Assembly (NCBI GenBank): GCA_021784635.1
Contig: JAJYHS010000167.1
Coordinates: forward strand, 1-5,611
DNA: 5,611 nt
Direction of reading: 5' to 3'
DNA from: a bacterium
Lineage (GTDB): Bacteria; Bdellovibrionota; Bdellovibrionia; Bdellovibrionales; UBA1609
The position numbers were made by a program, and so were the translations under genes. Below the pieces are notes generated by a model that saw nothing but the letters and a program-made list of their open reading frames with translations, was not told the origin of the DNA and searched no databases. This document shows positions 77 to 5,592 of the stretch, in pieces (position 1 is the stretch's first letter; the number at the start of each line of letters is the position of its first letter).

Positions 77-319
77 TTAAGAATGCGTTCCGGGCGCTCC
101 GCGTGCGATTAGTACTTCGCGCCTATCGTGCAAAAGTTGCGCGGTTTCTTCTAAAACGTCGTAGATTTTTGCAAGTTCCGTTTGTTCATCGTGAGCATCT
201 TCTCGCGACTTAAGGCGATCTCTTAACGAATCAACCAGCAATAATGCCGTACTGATAGGCGTTGAAAGGCGATGAAGAAACTCCCGTTCATCGTTTTTGT
301 TTGACTCGGATTTGTTCAT
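77..319 (-). CDS. Standalone DHp/HisKA-like small protein, candidate phosphotransferase
   Basis: An 80-aa soluble protein that looks like the dimerisation and phosphoacceptor hairpin of a histidine kinase and nothing else. Residues about 9-38 form a first helix with an H-box-like motif, FLHRLSTPIS, with His16, Thr20 and Pro21 at the spacing of the usual HExRTP. A turn follows at about 39-44, then a second helix (about 45-72) with heptad-like hydrophobics. There is no N, G1 or G2 box, so it cannot bind ATP as a kinase. The acidic residue after the histidine, needed for autokinase activity in the family, is Arg17. ATG at 319 is chosen over an in-frame GTG at 352 because an AAAGGAG lies 10 nt upstream of it. 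It is the last gene of the block, 45 nt after the response regulator. By inference it may dimerise into a Spo0B/ChpT-like four-helix bundle and pass phosphate between receivers, or act as a phosphatase or decoy. A decayed kinase remnant is the main alternative. Confidence 0.7.
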   Translation of the reverse strand: MNKSESNKNDEREFLHRLSTPISTALLLVDSLRDRLKSREDAHDEQTELAKIYDVLEETAQLLHDRREVLIARGAPGTHS

Positions 320-329
320 GAAGAAAACG

Positions 330-336
330 CTCCTTT
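330..336 (-). promoter_or_regulatory. Shine-Dalgarno deciding the start of the DHp-like gene
   Basis: The minus strand reads AAAGGAG here, 10 nt before ATG at 317-319. The alternative GTG at 350-352 has no comparable purine-rich site upstream and would place this motif inside the coding region. This supports the 80-aa form over the 91-aa form. Confidence 0.7.
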
Positions 337-364: not shown

Positions 365-1093
365 CTAGTATTTTGGTATAAATGATTTGGGGTTAAGTTC
401 TTCGGTTAAACGAATGATCCGATCGCGAAAATCATCTTGAATATGAACAAATTCGACACCGCAGCCTTTTGCCAAGTTGGCCGTTTTTTGCGTGCGCAAC
501 CAGCGCAAGATGCCGCGCCCCGAAAAATTCTCTTTCGTCGAGTTTTGAAACGCGACGGTAAAATTGATTTCAGAACCGATCGAAACGGGCAAATCTTCGG
601 ACATCGAGACAAACATGCCGCCTTGGCCCAGGCTCACGGCACGACTTTCAATCGCTTCGGCAAAATTCTGATAGTGAAGCCGCAAATTAAGGTTTGGTAG
701 CTGTATCGTCGTAGGATGGTCCCAGCGCTGTCTTTTTGGCAATAGAGCCAGATCGATGGTGTTATAAAGCGTCTTCCGGTTGAACGGTTTGGCGATCATT
801 GCGGCTGCGCCCTCGTGATAAGCGTCTTCGATGGCAAGCTCCGCGAAGCCGGTAAGTAAAAGAAAGACCGGGAATTCGCAATTTTGCTCGCGAATTTTCT
901 TCAGCAATTGAATGCCGTCGCCGTTAGGCATACGCACATCTGACAGAACGACATCTACTTTTGTGGTCTCGAGAATTTGAAGGGCTTGATTACCACTGTC
1001 GGCGAGTACAACCGTATACTGGCGCCTTTGAAAATCGTGGCCGATGGCTTCACGAAGCAATTTGTCGTCATCAACAATCAACACAGTGCGCAT
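365..1093 (-). CDS. Response regulator with N-terminal receiver and C-terminal PilZ-type domain
   Basis: A 242-aa cytoplasmic two-component response regulator. Residues 1-118 are a complete receiver: acidic pocket Asp8/Asp9 (in VDDD), phosphoacceptor Asp52 in VLSDVRMP, Thr81, and Lys102-Pro103. After a linker, residues about 130-232 resemble a PilZ domain of the kind often attached to receivers in deltaproteobacteria: an SLGQGGMFV turn at 154-162, LPVSIGSEINF at 168-178, a GRGILRW strand at 192-198, and GCGVEF at 210-215. In canonical PilZ domains an RxxxR and a [DN]xSxxG motif bind c-di-GMP. Here no RxxxR precedes the domain and the second motif reads SLGQGG, so Asp/Asn and Ser are replaced. 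It may therefore not bind the nucleotide and may act through protein contacts. No DNA-binding domain is present. ATG at 1093 gives the canonical MRTVLIVDDD start, with GAGG 4 nt upstream. It sits 100 nt downstream of the hybrid kinase, its probable phosphate source. Confidence 0.9.
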   Translation of the reverse strand: MRTVLIVDDDKLLREAIGHDFQRRQYTVVLADSGNQALQILETTKVDVVLSDVRMPNGDGIQLLKKIREQNCEFPVFLLLTGFAELAIEDAYHEGAAAMIAKPFNRKTLYNTIDLALLPKRQRWDHPTTIQLPNLNLRLHYQNFAEAIESRAVSLGQGGMFVSMSEDLPVSIGSEINFTVAFQNSTKENFSGRGILRWLRTQKTANLAKGCGVEFVHIQDDFRDRIIRLTEELNPKSFIPKY

Positions 1094-1193: not shown

Positions 1194-2873
1194 CTAAATT
1201 GCGAATCGTTTTACAGTCTGGATCAGTTTGAGAAAATCAATGGGCTTTGTTAGGTAATCGTTGACGCCGCATTTAAATGATTTTTCACGTTCGCTAGCCA
1301 AAGCGCAAGCTGTAAGGGCAATAACCGGCGCGGTAATGCCGTTAGAGCGCAGTTGTTCGGTCGCGGAGTTGCCGTCTAAAACCGGCATTTGAATATCCAT
1401 GACAATCACGTCGTAATGTCGGCGACGCGCCTTTTCGACGGCAACTAACCCGTTTTCAGCTACTTCTACGACAGCGCCTTGTTCGGTTAAAACATGGTTG
1501 AGCAAATAGCGATTATCGGGCGCATCTTCAGCCAAAAGTATTTTTAAACCCTGAAGGCCAGGTTGAGTGTGAGACTCGTTTTGCTCCGAAGTATCAGCTT
1601 CGGCGACGTCGCATTTCAAAGTAAGGCAAAAGGTTGTACCTTGAGGAGTGCTCTGTATCAGATCCAATTCGCCGCCTAATTGGGCGGCGAGCTGCTTTGA
1701 AATATAAAGGCCGAGTCCTGTACCGCCGAATAAAAAGCCGGGCCGTTTGATTTGCTTAAAAGGCTCAAAAAGATGTACTTGATCGGCAAAAGGTATGCCG
1801 ACGCCGGTATCGCGAACCCAAATCTTTAAATAACGTTCATTTTGTCTTGTCGAAATTATACCAGGTGGCGCAGGTATAATGTGAAATTCTACATCAACGC
1901 CGCCTTGAAGAGTGAATTTGATAGCATTGCCGATTAAGTTAATCAGAATTTGTCGCAAGTGGGCCGGGTCCGAATAAATCGCAACATTTTCAGATGTTGT
2001 CAGGTTGAGATAGAGATTCTTCTCTTGCGCCTTTACTATTGTCGCCGATCGAACGTCATCGATTAAATCGGCGAGCGAGAAAAAGCAGCGATTAACTTCA
2101 ACCGCGTCCGCTTCAATTTTCGAAATATCGAGAATGTCTCCGATAAGAGCCGTCAAGTGCCGTGAATTTTTAATGATCCGATCGGTCCAGTGTTTTTGTT
2201 CGGACGTTAAACCAGGAGAACTGGCGATAAGGTCGGCAAACCCTTTTATGGCAGTGAGTGGTGTTCGAATCTCATGGCTGATATTGGCTAAGAAATTGGT
2301 TTTGGCGTGATTTGCGTCTTCGGCCTCTTGTCGCGCGTGTTGCTCTTGTTCAAAAAGCCGGACTCGTTCAATAGCCTGAGCAAAAAGGTTCGCGAGCGTC
2401 GTTACGAATTTCGGGTCGACAGGTCGCGCGGGCGCTTTATTGTAAGAAAATCCGATAATGCCGATCGGATTTTGATTCACGACTAGAGGTGCATAGGCAA
2501 CCGATTCACGCCTCGAATAATCAACAAGTTCGGTAGGTACGACGGATTCTTTTTTAAATTCGTCCGCTGTGCCCAAGAAAAAACTGTCGTGCGGATTATC
2601 TTTTAATAGTAACGGCAGCCATTGTTTCGGAATGCGATGGCATTTTTCTTTAAAATGTTGCGTACAGCCCATCTCAGCAACCATTTCATATTGGTCGTCG
2701 GGGCGTGAAAGAAAAAGACAAACGGCATCGGCATCGAAGGCGGCCGCACATTCGCTTACGATCGTCGTGTTTATAGAGTCGCCGGAGTTATGCCGCACCA
2801 GGATGGTTGCGACTCGCTGAATATATTGGTTTTCGCGCCGAAGTTGTTCCAGTTCAGATATCTCGCATTCCAC
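1194..2873 (-). CDS. Soluble hybrid sensor histidine kinase, GAF-HisKA-HATPase-REC
   Basis: A 559-aa hybrid histidine kinase without membrane segments, so it should sense a cytoplasmic cue. Order: short coiled coil (about 5-20); GAF-like sensor (about 20-172) containing FDADAVCLFL and APLVVNQNPIGIIGFSY; helical linker (about 173-192); HisKA with His200 in SHEIRTPL; HATPase with N-box Asn312/Asn316, G1 DTGVGI at 355-360, F-box FEPFKQ at 369-374 and G2 GGTGLGL at 383-389; and a C-terminal receiver (about 443-556) with Glu449/Asp450, phosphoacceptor Asp493 in VMDIQMP, Thr521 and Lys543-Pro544. All catalytic residues are intact. There is no Hpt domain, so onward phosphotransfer needs a separate histidine protein. 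The GTG start at 2873 has AAAAGGA 7 nt upstream and overlaps the preceding gene by 20 nt, suggesting translational coupling. The GAF ligand is unknown; Cys52, Cys70 and Cys78 lie inside the GAF, but a redox role is speculation. Family assignment is secure; the signal is not. Confidence 0.96.
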   Translation of the reverse strand: MECEISELEQLRRENQYIQRVATILVRHNSGDSINTTIVSECAAAFDADAVCLFLSRPDDQYEMVAEMGCTQHFKEKCHRIPKQWLPLLLKDNPHDSFFLGTADEFKKESVVPTELVDYSRRESVAYAPLVVNQNPIGIIGFSYNKAPARPVDPKFVTTLANLFAQAIERVRLFEQEQHARQEAEDANHAKTNFLANISHEIRTPLTAIKGFADLIASSPGLTSEQKHWTDRIIKNSRHLTALIGDILDISKIEADAVEVNRCFFSLADLIDDVRSATIVKAQEKNLYLNLTTSENVAIYSDPAHLRQILINLIGNAIKFTLQGGVDVEFHIIPAPPGIISTRQNERYLKIWVRDTGVGIPFADQVHLFEPFKQIKRPGFLFGGTGLGLYISKQLAAQLGGELDLIQSTPQGTTFCLTLKCDVAEADTSEQNESHTQPGLQGLKILLAEDAPDNRYLLNHVLTEQGAVVEVAENGLVAVEKARRRHYDVIVMDIQMPVLDGNSATEQLRSNGITAPVIALTACALASEREKSFKCGVNDYLTKPIDFLKLIQTVKRFAI

Positions 2874-4080
2874 GGTCGATTCCTTTTGTGGTGGCGTCTA
2901 CGTGTTGGGCGTTTTGCCGCAAGCGATTCATCATTTTCAAAAATTGAGGGCTGTTAACCGAAAGGTAGATAATGTATTCCGGTTCTTTATTTTGTGAGGT
3001 CGGCAATTTAGAAAAAATTTGAAATCCATAGCGCCGGTACAATCGCGCCGTGGCCGGGTCGGCTCCCGCGACAATATATTTAACCTTTCGATCGACAACT
3101 TTTTGAAATGCATAGAGTAGAAATCGATCGCGCACGTCCTGCGGCAGGGTCGAATCGAAAGACGCGTAACGCAACATTTCGCACGTGTGACGCGCCGGAA
3201 ATTTTGAATAAAACGCTTCGCGAAACTTCGCGCGAAGTTCGACTGGGATTCGATATTCAAACGGGAGCAGGTCGTTCTCATGTGAATTCGGAGTCTCATT
3301 TTTCAGTAGATCATCAACCGATGGCCTAAAAAACGAGCGCGTGCCGAAATACGAAATTTGAATGGTTAGTAGCACCCGGTTCGATATGCTTGAATTTTCG
3401 GTTGTTGGGTCGTGATCAAGAAGTGTGATCACATCGTTATTTGTAGAGGCCTCGTTCAAATCTTTGAGAATGCGAAAATCATTTTCGTTCAGGTAGGGTT
3501 TCGCTTCATGATAAGACCGCATGACGGCCTCATGTGTCGGCCAACGGTAAGACAAGATATAGTCGGCTAATCGCATGCGTTTCGAGTCGAATAGGACCGT
3601 CAAATTGTCGTCAGGATGAGCAATCAAGTGGCCAAGCACATAACGGTTTACCCGAATTGAATAAGGTTCGAGGTTTTTTAAGCCCACGTTTAATAATTCA
3701 AATCTGCGCCCGTGAGACTTCCAAATTTCTTTTTGTACAGCGGTGCCGAAATCGTTCGGCATAGAGCGCACTTGTACGGTTCGCATCGGCCGAGCGTCAT
3801 TTTGAGAATCAGATGTTGGATGGGTCAGGGTAAAACCCTCACGGCCGTCGATATAGCGAAATTGAAGGTGTTTGATAGTTTCAGTGACTCGCTTTATTAC
3901 GGCAAGATGGGCGGGGGAATCGGGCGGCTCCAAAATGAACTGGCAAACACTTGAAACCTGCTGTTGAGATTTGGCCGAATCGGCGACCGCTCGATTTGTT
4001 GCGACAAACGACGCGACCAAAATGACCCAATAGATCATGGCCGCAAGAGGTCGCCGTAAAGGCCTGTTATTTGAGTTCAT
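2854..4080 (-). CDS. Putative exported protein with GNAT/N-acyltransferase-like C-terminal half
   Basis: A 408-aa protein of no recognised named family. Residues 1-33 look like a signal peptide: basic n-region (R6, R9, R10), hydrophobic core at about 12-27, and an AVA site before Asp34. The Arg9-Arg10 pair only weakly resembles a Tat signal. Residues about 34-215 show no motif I recognise. The C-terminal part resembles N-acyl amino acid/autoinducer synthase-type GNAT folds: a strand RVLLTIQIS at 235-243, then CEMLRYASFD at 300-309 (like the E-x-x-R-x-a-V strand of LuxI/FeeM-type enzymes), a helix at about 314-330, KYIVAGADP at 334-342, and ARLYRRYGF at 345-353, the typical GNAT a-x-x-lYrr-GF helix. 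Export is odd for enzymes that use acyl-CoA or acyl-ACP. ATG at 4080 is preferred; an in-frame TTG at 4098 adds six residues, and neither has a clear Shine-Dalgarno. First gene of the block, overlapping the kinase by 20 nt. The gene call is sound; GNAT membership is moderately supported and the substrate unknown. Confidence 0.72.
   Translation of the reverse strand: MNSNNRPLRRPLAAMIYWVILVASFVATNRAVADSAKSQQQVSSVCQFILEPPDSPAHLAVIKRVTETIKHLQFRYIDGREGFTLTHPTSDSQNDARPMRTVQVRSMPNDFGTAVQKEIWKSHGRRFELLNVGLKNLEPYSIRVNRYVLGHLIAHPDDNLTVLFDSKRMRLADYILSYRWPTHEAVMRSYHEAKPYLNENDFRILKDLNEASTNNDVITLLDHDPTTENSSISNRVLLTIQISYFGTRSFFRPSVDDLLKNETPNSHENDLLPFEYRIPVELRAKFREAFYSKFPARHTCEMLRYASFDSTLPQDVRDRFLLYAFQKVVDRKVKYIVAGADPATARLYRRYGFQIFSKLPTSQNKEPEYIIYLSVNSPQFLKMMNRLRQNAQHVDATTKGIDRGMRDI
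2881..2887 (-). promoter_or_regulatory. Shine-Dalgarno supporting the GTG start of the hybrid kinase
   Basis: The minus strand reads AAAAGGA here, 7 nt before the GTG at 2871-2873. The site lies inside the coding region of the upstream gene, which ends 20 nt into the kinase gene. It supports a GTG start and translation coupled to the upstream gene. Confidence 0.75.
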
Positions 4081-4208
4081 GGTGTTGTGTTGTAGCAATG
4101 AAATAATTTTTATTTGTTAAACCGGAATTAAGATTTATTAAAACGGCAAGGCAATTTCTACAAATATCATGCGGCGGCTTTAGGTCCAGGTTTTATGGTT
4201 GTACTTTG

Positions 4209-4306: not shown

Positions 4307-5419
4307 GTGCAGAAAACTTTGGATCATCTTTTTCATGAGAAATTTTTAACCGTACTCGTGTTACTGGCCCTCGGGTTTGTGTTTTCGGGACGTCTGTTGC
4401 CTGAACGTGCCATCCACGTCGTGGAGTGGCGCACGGTGGGTACGCTATTCGGACTTTTGCTTTTAAGTTGTGGCCTAGAACAAAGCGGTTATTTGCACAG
4501 GTTCGGCCATCAACTTTTAAAGCGTTTACCGACCGAGCGGCGAGTCGCGGCTTTTTTCGTTGTGAGTGCCGCGGCGATGGCGACAGTAATTACGAACGAT
4601 ATTTCACTGTTTATTGTTATTCCATTAGCGCTTGAAGTAGGGCGTTCATTGAAAGGCTACCCGACAGGGCGACTCATCATTTTTGTCGCTCTCGCCGTCA
4701 ACGTCGGATCGTCTCTAACGGCGGTTGGCAACCCGCAAAATATATTCTTGTGGCAGACGTCACACGTGAGTTTTGTTCAATTCGCCGAAACGATGTTACC
4801 GTTCGCCGGGTCGCTTTTTTTAGTCCTATTATTTGGCGTTTTTTTCGCTTTTCGACCGCTTCCGCTCGTTTTAAACAATGTTCAAATAGCTAATACGCTT
4901 GATTCAAGGCTTTTCACGGCGTCGATTCTGCTTTACCCGGTTTTTCTGACGGCGGTTGATAACGGGTTTATTCGAACGGCGCTTCTTGTTGTTTTGCTGG
5001 TCTTTTTATTCGTCGGGCGAAAGGCGTTTCGGCGATTAGATTGGGCCTTGCTCGCGGTTTTTGTGTTTATGTTCATCGATTTTAAGTCTATAGCGGCACT
5101 CCCGCTGGTGCAGAGCTTGGCTTTGCAGGCCCTACATTGGAAGTACGGGGCATTTAAATCGGGGCTGCTGTTTTCGCAGGTGTTGTCGAATGTACCGGCG
5201 ACTATTTTGCTGCAGTCGTTTCATCCACCGTGGCGCGAATTGGCCTGGGGGGTGGCCGTTGGTGGATTTGGTTTAGCAATCGGCTCGCTTGCCAACTTGA
5301 TTGCGCTTCGGCTTGCGCGAATAAAGCGCCTTTGGGTCGAGTTTCATGTATGGTCGCTTGCCATGTTTGCCGTGTCGTTTCTGATTGGTTTAGTTTTGCT
5401 CCATATCGTTCAACCTTAG
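4307..5419 (+). CDS. ybiR: YbiR-family inner-membrane transporter (ArsB/NhaD ion transporter superfamily)
   Basis: A 370-aa, very hydrophobic protein with about ten membrane segments, nearly the length of E. coli YbiR (372 aa as recalled). Conserved stretches match that family: VITNDISLFIVIPL at 94-107, the re-entrant-loop-like NVGSSLTAVGNPQN at 132-145, SQVLSNVPATILL at 290-302, and GSLANLIALRLARIKRLW at 326-343 near the C-terminus. The two N/G/P-rich segments correspond to the pseudo-symmetric substrate-site loops of the ion transporter superfamily. The E. coli protein is an uncharacterised anion-transporter-like protein, so the substrate is unknown; arsenite or Na+/H+ transport should not be assumed. 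The GTG at 4307 is the most upstream usable start: the frame is closed by TGA at 4271 and no ATG, GTG or TTG lies between. Its N-terminus aligns well with YbiR. No Shine-Dalgarno is seen. It is transcribed divergently from the signalling block, with no obvious functional link. Confidence 0.92.
   Translation: MQKTLDHLFHEKFLTVLVLLALGFVFSGRLLPERAIHVVEWRTVGTLFGLLLLSCGLEQSGYLHRFGHQLLKRLPTERRVAAFFVVSAAAMATVITNDISLFIVIPLALEVGRSLKGYPTGRLIIFVALAVNVGSSLTAVGNPQNIFLWQTSHVSFVQFAETMLPFAGSLFLVLLFGVFFAFRPLPLVLNNVQIANTLDSRLFTASILLYPVFLTAVDNGFIRTALLVVLLVFLFVGRKAFRRLDWALLAVFVFMFIDFKSIAALPLVQSLALQALHWKYGAFKSGLLFSQVLSNVPATILLQSFHPPWRELAWGVAVGGFGLAIGSLANLIALRLARIKRLWVEFHVWSLAMFAVSFLIGLVLLHIVQP

Positions 5420-5515: not shown

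Positions 5516-5592
<77 letters not shown>

Follow-up and report, generated by a model that had tools for sequence, protein, structure and literature searches.

A large family of stand-alone DHp-like hairpin proteins in Bdellovibrionota and its possible role in phosphoryl transfer

Introduction

Can the DHp hairpin of histidine kinases do useful work as a protein of its own? The question is raised by an 80-aa protein encoded in a member of the Bdellovibrionota. The window, that is, the whole stretch of DNA analyzed here, is an entire contig of 5,611 bases, and its source genome is 76% complete. In a kinase, the DHp hairpin is the dimerization unit; it accepts phosphate from ATP via the ATPase domain, gives it to a receiver, and also hydrolyzes receiver phosphate. 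Because a bare DHp has no ATPase domain, uptake of ATP-derived phosphate is out for such a protein unless it is supplied by another one. In the relay of Bacillus subtilis, which has the order Kin-Spo0F-Spo0B-Spo0A, the transferase Spo0B retains a second, degenerate ATPase-like domain.

Phosphotransferases of the DHp type are thus known already. The two-helix hairpins of two Spo0B subunits build a four-helix bundle, as described in PMC3433190, and Spo0B is grouped with degenerated kinases in the account of PMC5898713. Alphaproteobacterial ChpT, according to PMC3433190, contains a DHp hairpin with the catalytic His, does not autophosphorylate, and has a kinase-like architecture. PhyT of Sphingomonas is presented in PMC5898713 as a kinase-derived transferase that, with no hybrid kinase involved, takes phosphate from the single-domain receiver SdrG to a regulator with an output. 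A sequence-only reading of the window had proposed that the 80-aa protein is a still smaller part of this kind, a bare DHp hairpin acting beside a hybrid kinase and a regulator. Here we describe the family to which this protein belongs and weigh what it may do.

Results

A predicted DHp-like hairpin without a second domain

The gene and its features are as follows.

77..319, minus strand: bare DHp-like protein, 80 aa (coding 80-319, stop 77-79), from translation and family membership
272..274, minus strand: His16 codon, predicted phospho-acceptor, from alignment A2 and the hhalign comparison with kinase DHp regions
257..262, minus strand: Thr20-Pro21 codons (H+4 and H+5), from alignment A2
212..313, minus strand: predicted helix 1, residues 3-36, from the AlphaFold2 model
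98..193, minus strand: predicted helix 2, residues 43-74, with the conserved Arg66-Arg67, from the AlphaFold2 model and the alignment
329..336, minus strand: AAAGGAGC, a ribosome-binding-like stretch read from the sequence, 9 nt upstream of the ATG at 319

The translation and the Pfam scan agreed with the proposal of an 80-aa protein that carries His16-x3-Thr20-Pro21 and no ATPase domain. The sole Pfam match was HisKA (13.9 bits, E 0.058, residues 16-64), below the curated cut-off of 26.9 bits for this family (PF00512). No other Pfam family was matched at E ≤ 10, hence neither HATPase nor Hpt (PF01627), and NCBIfam gave no match. In the H-box, His, Thr20 and Pro21 are present, and the acidic residue at H+1 is replaced by Arg17. 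The AlphaFold2 model, a single chain computed from an input alignment of 117 rows including the query, consists of helices 3-36 and 43-74 (mean pLDDT 85.9, pTM 0.70), with His16 inside helix 1, which bears out the two-helix hairpin. The protein stops after this hairpin; a second, ATPase-like domain is absent from translation and model alike.

Structure comparison did not discriminate, as a two-helix hairpin resembles designed bundles and many unrelated coiled coils; Foldseek of the hairpin model against the PDB gave no match at E ≤ 0.001. A sequence search of the PDB with the family profile yielded 31 matches at E ≤ 10, mostly helical noise, and included two kinases matched from the His onwards (4jas, E 0.055, and 3a0r, 'Sensor protein', E 0.7).

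A large family of short, separate genes related to kinase DHp domains

A search with the single sequence hit 95 of 196 relatives at E ≤ 1, and short separate frames made up most of the best hits. With a profile (A1) built from 28 stand-alone homologues, 221 of the 368 genomes of the phylum matched at E ≤ 0.01, a count that overstates the genomes with a bare DHp, because some of the weaker matches are long, kinase-sized frames. Among the 111 best matches (E ≤ 1.1e-9), whose median length is 93 aa, 108 are open frames of at most 160 aa; these come from 106 genomes. Three frames deviate: one has an artefactual 5' extension, judged by the letters (L010/L039), in another the DHp is joined to a thioesterase-like domain (L035), and in the third it is joined to a receiver (L155). 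Had homologues always been part of full-length kinases, this would have spoken against a stand-alone part; they are not.

Searches of protein databases yielded 188 distinct homologues. The named ones come mostly from Bdellovibrio, Bdellovibrionales, Pseudobdellovibrionaceae and Bacteriovoracia, with one from a 'Deltaproteobacteria' assembly, and most are annotated as hypothetical proteins; a precomputed Pfam domain was present in only one of the database homologues (P0128, HisKA). By its homologues, the 80-aa protein is a member of a large, conserved, stand-alone family, and not an oddity, an orphan or recent debris.

The kinship of this family is to kinase DHp domains. In hhalign, alignment A2 of the family matched the DHp regions of 24 kinases encoded at these loci with a probability of 95.9 and an E of 5e-9, His on His. 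When the 117 members of A2 were scanned against Pfam at E ≤ 0.1, HisKA was matched by 31 (best E 1.3e-6), SPOB_a, the Spo0B-type helical domain, by 12, and the next family by five. Neither Hpt nor HPTransfase was among the best 25 of the 111 Pfam families matched by these members.

In a tree of the 117 bare and 24 kinase DHps, the label 'bare' required two changes, compared with a mean of 22.5 after shuffling. The resolution of this tree is poor (83 columns, long branches, unsettled bootstrap), and it was used only for the clustering of labels and for placing the kinase of the window; many separate, recent losses of an ATPase domain are not the picture that it gives. These results bear on the concern, voiced in the sequence-only reading, that the protein could be the debris of a decayed histidine kinase. 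The weak Pfam score, the lack in the window of the Asp17 of near homologues, and an erosion of the active site in one branch (see below) would fit such debris. However, the label clustering, with the small number of columns and the poor resolution of the tree in mind, and the conservation of length and motif across families argue against it. Recent decay is now unlikely, and debris is to us the most improbable of the readings considered.

A conserved His, and its loss in one branch

Alignment A2 comprises 117 rows, namely the genes with a fetched neighborhood and four database proteins; only five rows are of the Bdellovibrio type. His16 is invariant in A2 (117/117), a count that excludes the Gln-for-His gene of genome G121 (L022, the same as L085) and is to be read beside that for the 187 database homologues given below. 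Position H+1 is D or E in 100 of the 117 rows, H+4 is N, S or T in 112 (Ser in 20), and H+5 is Pro in 47. Strong conservation is also seen in an opening E-R-x-F-[L/I]-H and in a pair R-R close to where helix 2 ends.

In a second alignment, A5, of the query and 25 selected homologues (26 rows), most of the near homologues have DEREFLHDLA[T/S]P at their N-terminal end, and RGVPSAR is common at the C-terminal end. Here H+1 is Asp in 24 of 26 rows; the window protein has Arg17, and its 99% identical relative has Ser. The Arg after the His had been taken as a sign of a protein that is not an autokinase. The residue is real; judged by these alignments, it is a private substitution of the window protein, and we dropped it as a mark of the family.

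Residues at these positions have been assigned to activities: according to PMC3510030, in HisKA proteins the acidic residue at H+1 serves the kinase reaction and autophosphorylation, and Thr or Asn at H+4 serves the phosphatase and not the kinase. In a grouping that was chosen after seeing the data, H+1 is non-acidic in six of the nine members linked to REC-PilZ genes versus 11 of the 108 others, which by sequence would fit a protein that faces receivers only. The same data bring in a receiver phosphatase: the bare DHp would bind phosphorylated REC-PilZ or a sister REC, Thr20 would speed hydrolysis, and the His would position the reaction and carry no relay phosphate. The occupancy of H+4, the very position whose Thr or Asn the phosphatase requires in the account of PMC3510030, favors this possibility, as does the missing kinase-specific acidic residue in the REC-PilZ-linked members, with the same caveat of post hoc grouping; moreover, phosphatase activity of EnvZ without its catalytic domain is on record, as cited in PMC7005713. 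However, the ATP-binding domain and nucleotide stimulate such activity, again according to PMC7005713, and the 80-aa protein has no such domain; the Ser found at H+4 in part of the family differs from the classical Thr/Asn; and the invariance of the His exceeds the cited requirement for Thr or Asn. A phosphatase, which the motif would fit nearly as well as it fits a phosphoryl carrier, is a close rival of the latter, and we consider it possible, if on the unlikely side.

The wider set of database proteins revealed where the His is lost. In the 187 of 188 proteins that could be scored, the His is missing in 27, and all 27 belong to a Bdellovibrio-type branch with the motif xIGVSLNAALF and variants of it. 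Membership of this branch was decided by a rule for the motif that follows the His; the rule wrongly takes in P0170 (His present) and leaves outside the akin-looking, His-bearing P0061, P0063, P0077 and P0080. The branch keeps the His in 49 of its 76 members and lacks it in the other 27. The replacements are Asn, Arg, Tyr, Asp, Gln or Lys (for example in P0042, P0046 and P0050, and also in L022), and H+4 is frequently other than Thr/Asn. In the other branches, all 111 scored homologues have the His, and N, T or S stands at H+4 in 107 of them. The expectation that stand-alone homologues conserve His16 held throughout A2 and these branches and failed in part of the Bdellovibrio-type branch.

In all five Bdellovibrio-type neighborhoods examined, those of His-bearing genes (L037, L038, L045, L061 and L063), there is no REC within two genes. 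Since all 27 losses fall in this branch and these five neighborhoods are free of REC, the active site appears to erode there only, and the branch looks orphaned, in the material examined. The replacement of the His suggests that the phospho-chemistry was lost and the gene retained. The branch also bears on the idea of a dimerization or docking partner, a hairpin that would pair with a kinase hairpin or cover receiver surfaces and so block or insulate signaling without chemistry at His16. By nature a DHp hairpin is a dimerization unit, and the Bdellovibrio-type proteins keep the remaining sequence pattern, yet lose the His in many cases. A pure scaffold would, however, not need the His that all 111 homologues of the other branches and all rows of A2 possess, and we regard docking alone as improbable.

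Receivers adjoin the gene in part of the range

Gene neighborhoods were analyzed in 119 stretches (the window, L031-L068 and L098-L177). Four of them, L055, L058, L062 and L064, were left out, as they had no bare DHp at E < 1e-8, so that 115 targets remained, some genomes giving two. Genes were picked by open frames, by which the REC-PilZ genes beside L109 and L162 were missed; these were recovered by a REC-PilZ profile search.

A REC gene adjoins 29 of the 115 targets, very unevenly across the families into which these fall. In family f17 this is the case for 10 of 11 targets, and REC occupies 12 of 22 adjacent slots versus one of 46 slots at a distance of at least four genes. Among the small families, which were pooled, REC adjoins seven of 11 targets (9 of 22 adjacent versus 1 of 33 distant slots). 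In f10 it adjoins six of seven, with 6 of 14 adjacent versus 13 of 51 distant slots, which is not above the local background (p 0.17). The values are four of 17 in f1, the window's own family, one of six in f8 and one of 63 in f18, whose neighborhoods rest on counts, with the loci seen in part. Most family members lie outside any two-component operon.

The families also differ in their other neighbors. In f1, a thioesterase-like gene lies within two genes of 11 of the 17 targets; a single REC stands between the DHp and the thioesterase-like gene at L041 and L059, and at L047, where the thioesterase-like gene is missing, a single REC comes after the DHp. In genome G011 (L035:6859-7440), a DHp-like segment forms an in-frame fusion with a thioesterase-like domain of the 4HBT_2 family, and the flanking genes, from the starts of their sequences, resemble what we take to be a menaquinone cluster. 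The f18 genes (L098-L146 and others) are mostly found in one conserved neighborhood without REC or kinase, next to genes for proteins of about 580-610 aa (AMP-ligase-like by eye), about 80-90 aa, about 134 aa (secreted-looking) and about 577 aa (lipoprotein-like). Two f10 clusters (L039:9013-9423 and L050:2336-2725) combine a bare DHp, a stand-alone Hpt-like protein, which is above the Pfam cut-off in G055, several RECs and a kinase, so that both types of transferase may coexist in one pathway.

REC-PilZ genes, for which the sequence-only reading had suggested a survey of recurring homologues beside them, were found together with a DHp gene at nine loci in varied gene order, seven with the two genes within two genes of each other and the two recovered ones. 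Viewed from the other side, a bare DHp was present within flanks of up to 1.5 kb at eight of 30 REC-PilZ loci, and at a ninth, L178, just outside; seven of the 30 had served to build the REC-PilZ profile, and among the other 23, a bare DHp was found at only two. An obligatory partnership with REC-PilZ was rejected on this count. No bare DHp lies near five closely similar REC-PilZ genes (G144, G052, G364, G177 and G317) or at a sixth locus, in G360, and a kinase or a lone REC is found near these six. Since similar REC-PilZ genes occur there without it, the bare DHp is dispensable at these loci.

At six loci (L031, L032, L033, L140, L151 and L155), the DHp gene or domain lies between or beside two receivers. 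The order in G188 (L031) is kinase, single-domain REC, DHp and REC-HD, which recalls Kin-Spo0F-Spo0B-Spo0A. A REC-HD_5 protein adjoins the DHp at L031 and L151, and REC-HD proteins that look similar by their letters are found at L033, L043, L109 and L140. At L032 the DHp stands between two REC genes, one with a Trans_reg_C output. In G326 (L155:4983-5609), a 208-aa REC-DHp fusion, in which no ATPase domain was matched, is followed by a REC-CheX protein.

A gene with an ATPase domain lies within two genes of 11 of the 115 targets, and only in the window and at L149 does the kinase have a receiver in the same frame. The proposed relay from a hybrid kinase is hence not the arrangement that the family conserves, as only two of these 11 targets have a receiver-bearing kinase. 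One might suppose instead a split kinase, in which the ATPase domain of a neighboring kinase phosphorylates His16 in trans and His16 then feeds receivers; a kinase gene is indeed part of the operons at L031, L136, L142, L151, L153 and L158. Yet each of these six kinases has its own DHp, ATPase-domain genes are absent from the vicinity of most targets, and the acidic H+1 needed for autophosphorylation (PMC3510030) is Arg in the window protein and non-acidic in most REC-PilZ-linked members. A split kinase is in our view highly improbable.

The window's own neighbors

The following further features were assigned in the window.

365..1093, minus strand: REC-PilZ response regulator, 242 aa (Pfam Response_reg 88.8 bits, PilZ 26.8 bits), Asp52 codon at 938-940
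1194..2873, minus strand: GAF-HisKA-HATPase-REC hybrid kinase (Pfam), His200 codon at 2274-2276, Asp493 codon at 1395-1397
2854..4083, minus strand: 409-aa protein directly upstream of the kinase and overlapping its start, predicted acyltransferase fold (weak model)
4307-5419, plus strand: CitMHS-type transporter (PF03600, 92.9 bits)
5516-5592, plus strand: tRNA-Met (CAT), near the contig end

On the minus strand, the order is 409-aa protein, hybrid kinase, REC-PilZ, a gap of 45 bases and the 80-aa protein. Beyond it, a plus-strand frame is open from the contig end to a stop at base 69, and the gene run is not visible further. The neighbors are as the sequence-only reading had it, a GAF hybrid kinase, in which Pfam gave no Hpt match, and a REC-PilZ regulator. 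The latter is the likely partner of the 80-aa protein, and the hybrid kinase is a possible source of the phosphoryl group. A classical Hpt above the Pfam cut-off is encoded elsewhere in the same genome, and the idea that the genome is short of Hpt and needs a substitute was rejected.

In the tree, the DHp of the window's kinase stands apart from a cluster formed by the kinase DHps of L031, L033, L136, L142, L151, L153 and L158; the kinase next to the REC-PilZ and DHp genes of the window is thus of another kind. A gene for a homologue of the 409-aa protein and, after it, one for a GAF-HisKA-HATPase-REC kinase are also present in G005, from the same genus, and in G043, from the same family, with neither REC-PilZ nor a bare DHp behind the kinase, so that this part of the arrangement exists without the proposed relay. 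From these few loci, REC-PilZ and DHp are likely to be a unit that came to adjoin a different kinase in the window.

The 409-aa protein has no Pfam match, and its AlphaFold2 model is weak (pLDDT 66.6, four sequences in the alignment). The model matches GNAT acyltransferases, the N-acyl amino acid synthase FeeM and acyl-homoserine-lactone synthases of the LuxI type (best E 3.3e-5, TM by query about 0.3). This protein and the adjoining GAF hybrid kinase could be a pair of signal synthase and receptor. In a comparison of the window with a plasmid collection, the best 20 of 148 matches all fell on the tRNA-Met.

Discussion

At the level of sequence, the analysis revealed a stand-alone family, a conserved His, the H-x-x-x-[T/N/S] pattern, profile kinship to DHp, a receiver neighborhood in several lineages and one fusion; of these, the neighborhood and the fusion speak for transfer between receivers. 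The reading that we prefer, and to which we give close to an even chance, is that the 80-aa protein is a DHp-type hairpin dimer and a minimal, Spo0B-like phosphoryl carrier between a receiver and Asp52 of the REC-PilZ protein. Two of the hairpins predicted for the single chain would pair into a dimeric four-helix bundle, His16 would take phosphate from one receiver, and this phosphate would be passed to or from Asp52. For the window, the route would lead from His200 of the kinase via its Asp493 to His16 of the DHp protein and on to Asp52 of REC-PilZ. As the DHp of a kinase can serve a receiver directly, the conserved role is more likely the coupling of two receivers, or control over the time for which one receiver keeps its phosphate, than an obligatory step after a hybrid kinase. 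We prefer the carrier to the phosphatase because losses of the His are confined to one of the branches examined, because six loci have two receivers, and because Spo0B, ChpT and PhyT are carriers. One protein may also act as both.

The comparison with these carriers shows what would be special about the family. With Spo0B, which carries phosphate between receivers, it shares a His-bearing helical hairpin, predicted here, and SPOB_a as the second most frequent weak Pfam match; however, Spo0B has a second, ATPase-like domain, whereas the bare DHp family ends after the hairpin. ChpT likewise has the DHp hairpin with its His, predicted for the present family, but also a C-terminal atypical Bergerat-fold domain that the family lacks. 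PhyT, which in PMC5898713 seems to be named PhyP, is described there as a protein predicted to lie in the membrane, and a degenerate ATPase domain and an HRxxN motif also set it apart. Hpt proteins (PF01627) would do the same job; the present family aligns to kinase DHp, and the 80-aa protein has no Hpt match. The P2CS database has a class for HisKA-only proteins (PMC2716373), which is a category of detection and not a described family, and the 80-aa protein falls under the Pfam HisKA cut-off.

Among the matches listed in searches of the open-access literature, there was no description of a family of DHp-only proteins, in Bdellovibrionota or elsewhere. As far as these listed matches show, what is new is a large, coherent family consisting of the hairpin only, here below the Pfam cut-off, part of which has receivers as recurring neighbors. 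A broader proposal, which we hold tentatively and at somewhat less than even chance, is that bare-hairpin dimers, unannotated and encoded in a large share of the genomes across the phylum, are a third structural type of histidine phosphotransfer protein in addition to Hpt and pseudo-kinases, and that they shuttle phosphate among receivers and tie together REC-PilZ and REC-HD (c-di-GMP-type) outputs, sometimes as a REC-DHp fusion.

If this is true, one hairpin of 70 residues suffices for histidine phosphotransfer, and censuses of two-component systems that rely on domain cut-offs miss a stand-alone component in at least 106 of the 368 genomes of the phylum examined (E ≤ 1.1e-9, at most 160 aa). 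The family would offer a very small natural system for the questions of whether a DHp by itself acts as carrier, phosphatase or both and of how it chooses its receiver in the absence of an ATP-lid, and the Bdellovibrio-type branch with its eroding active site would provide a ready natural contrast.
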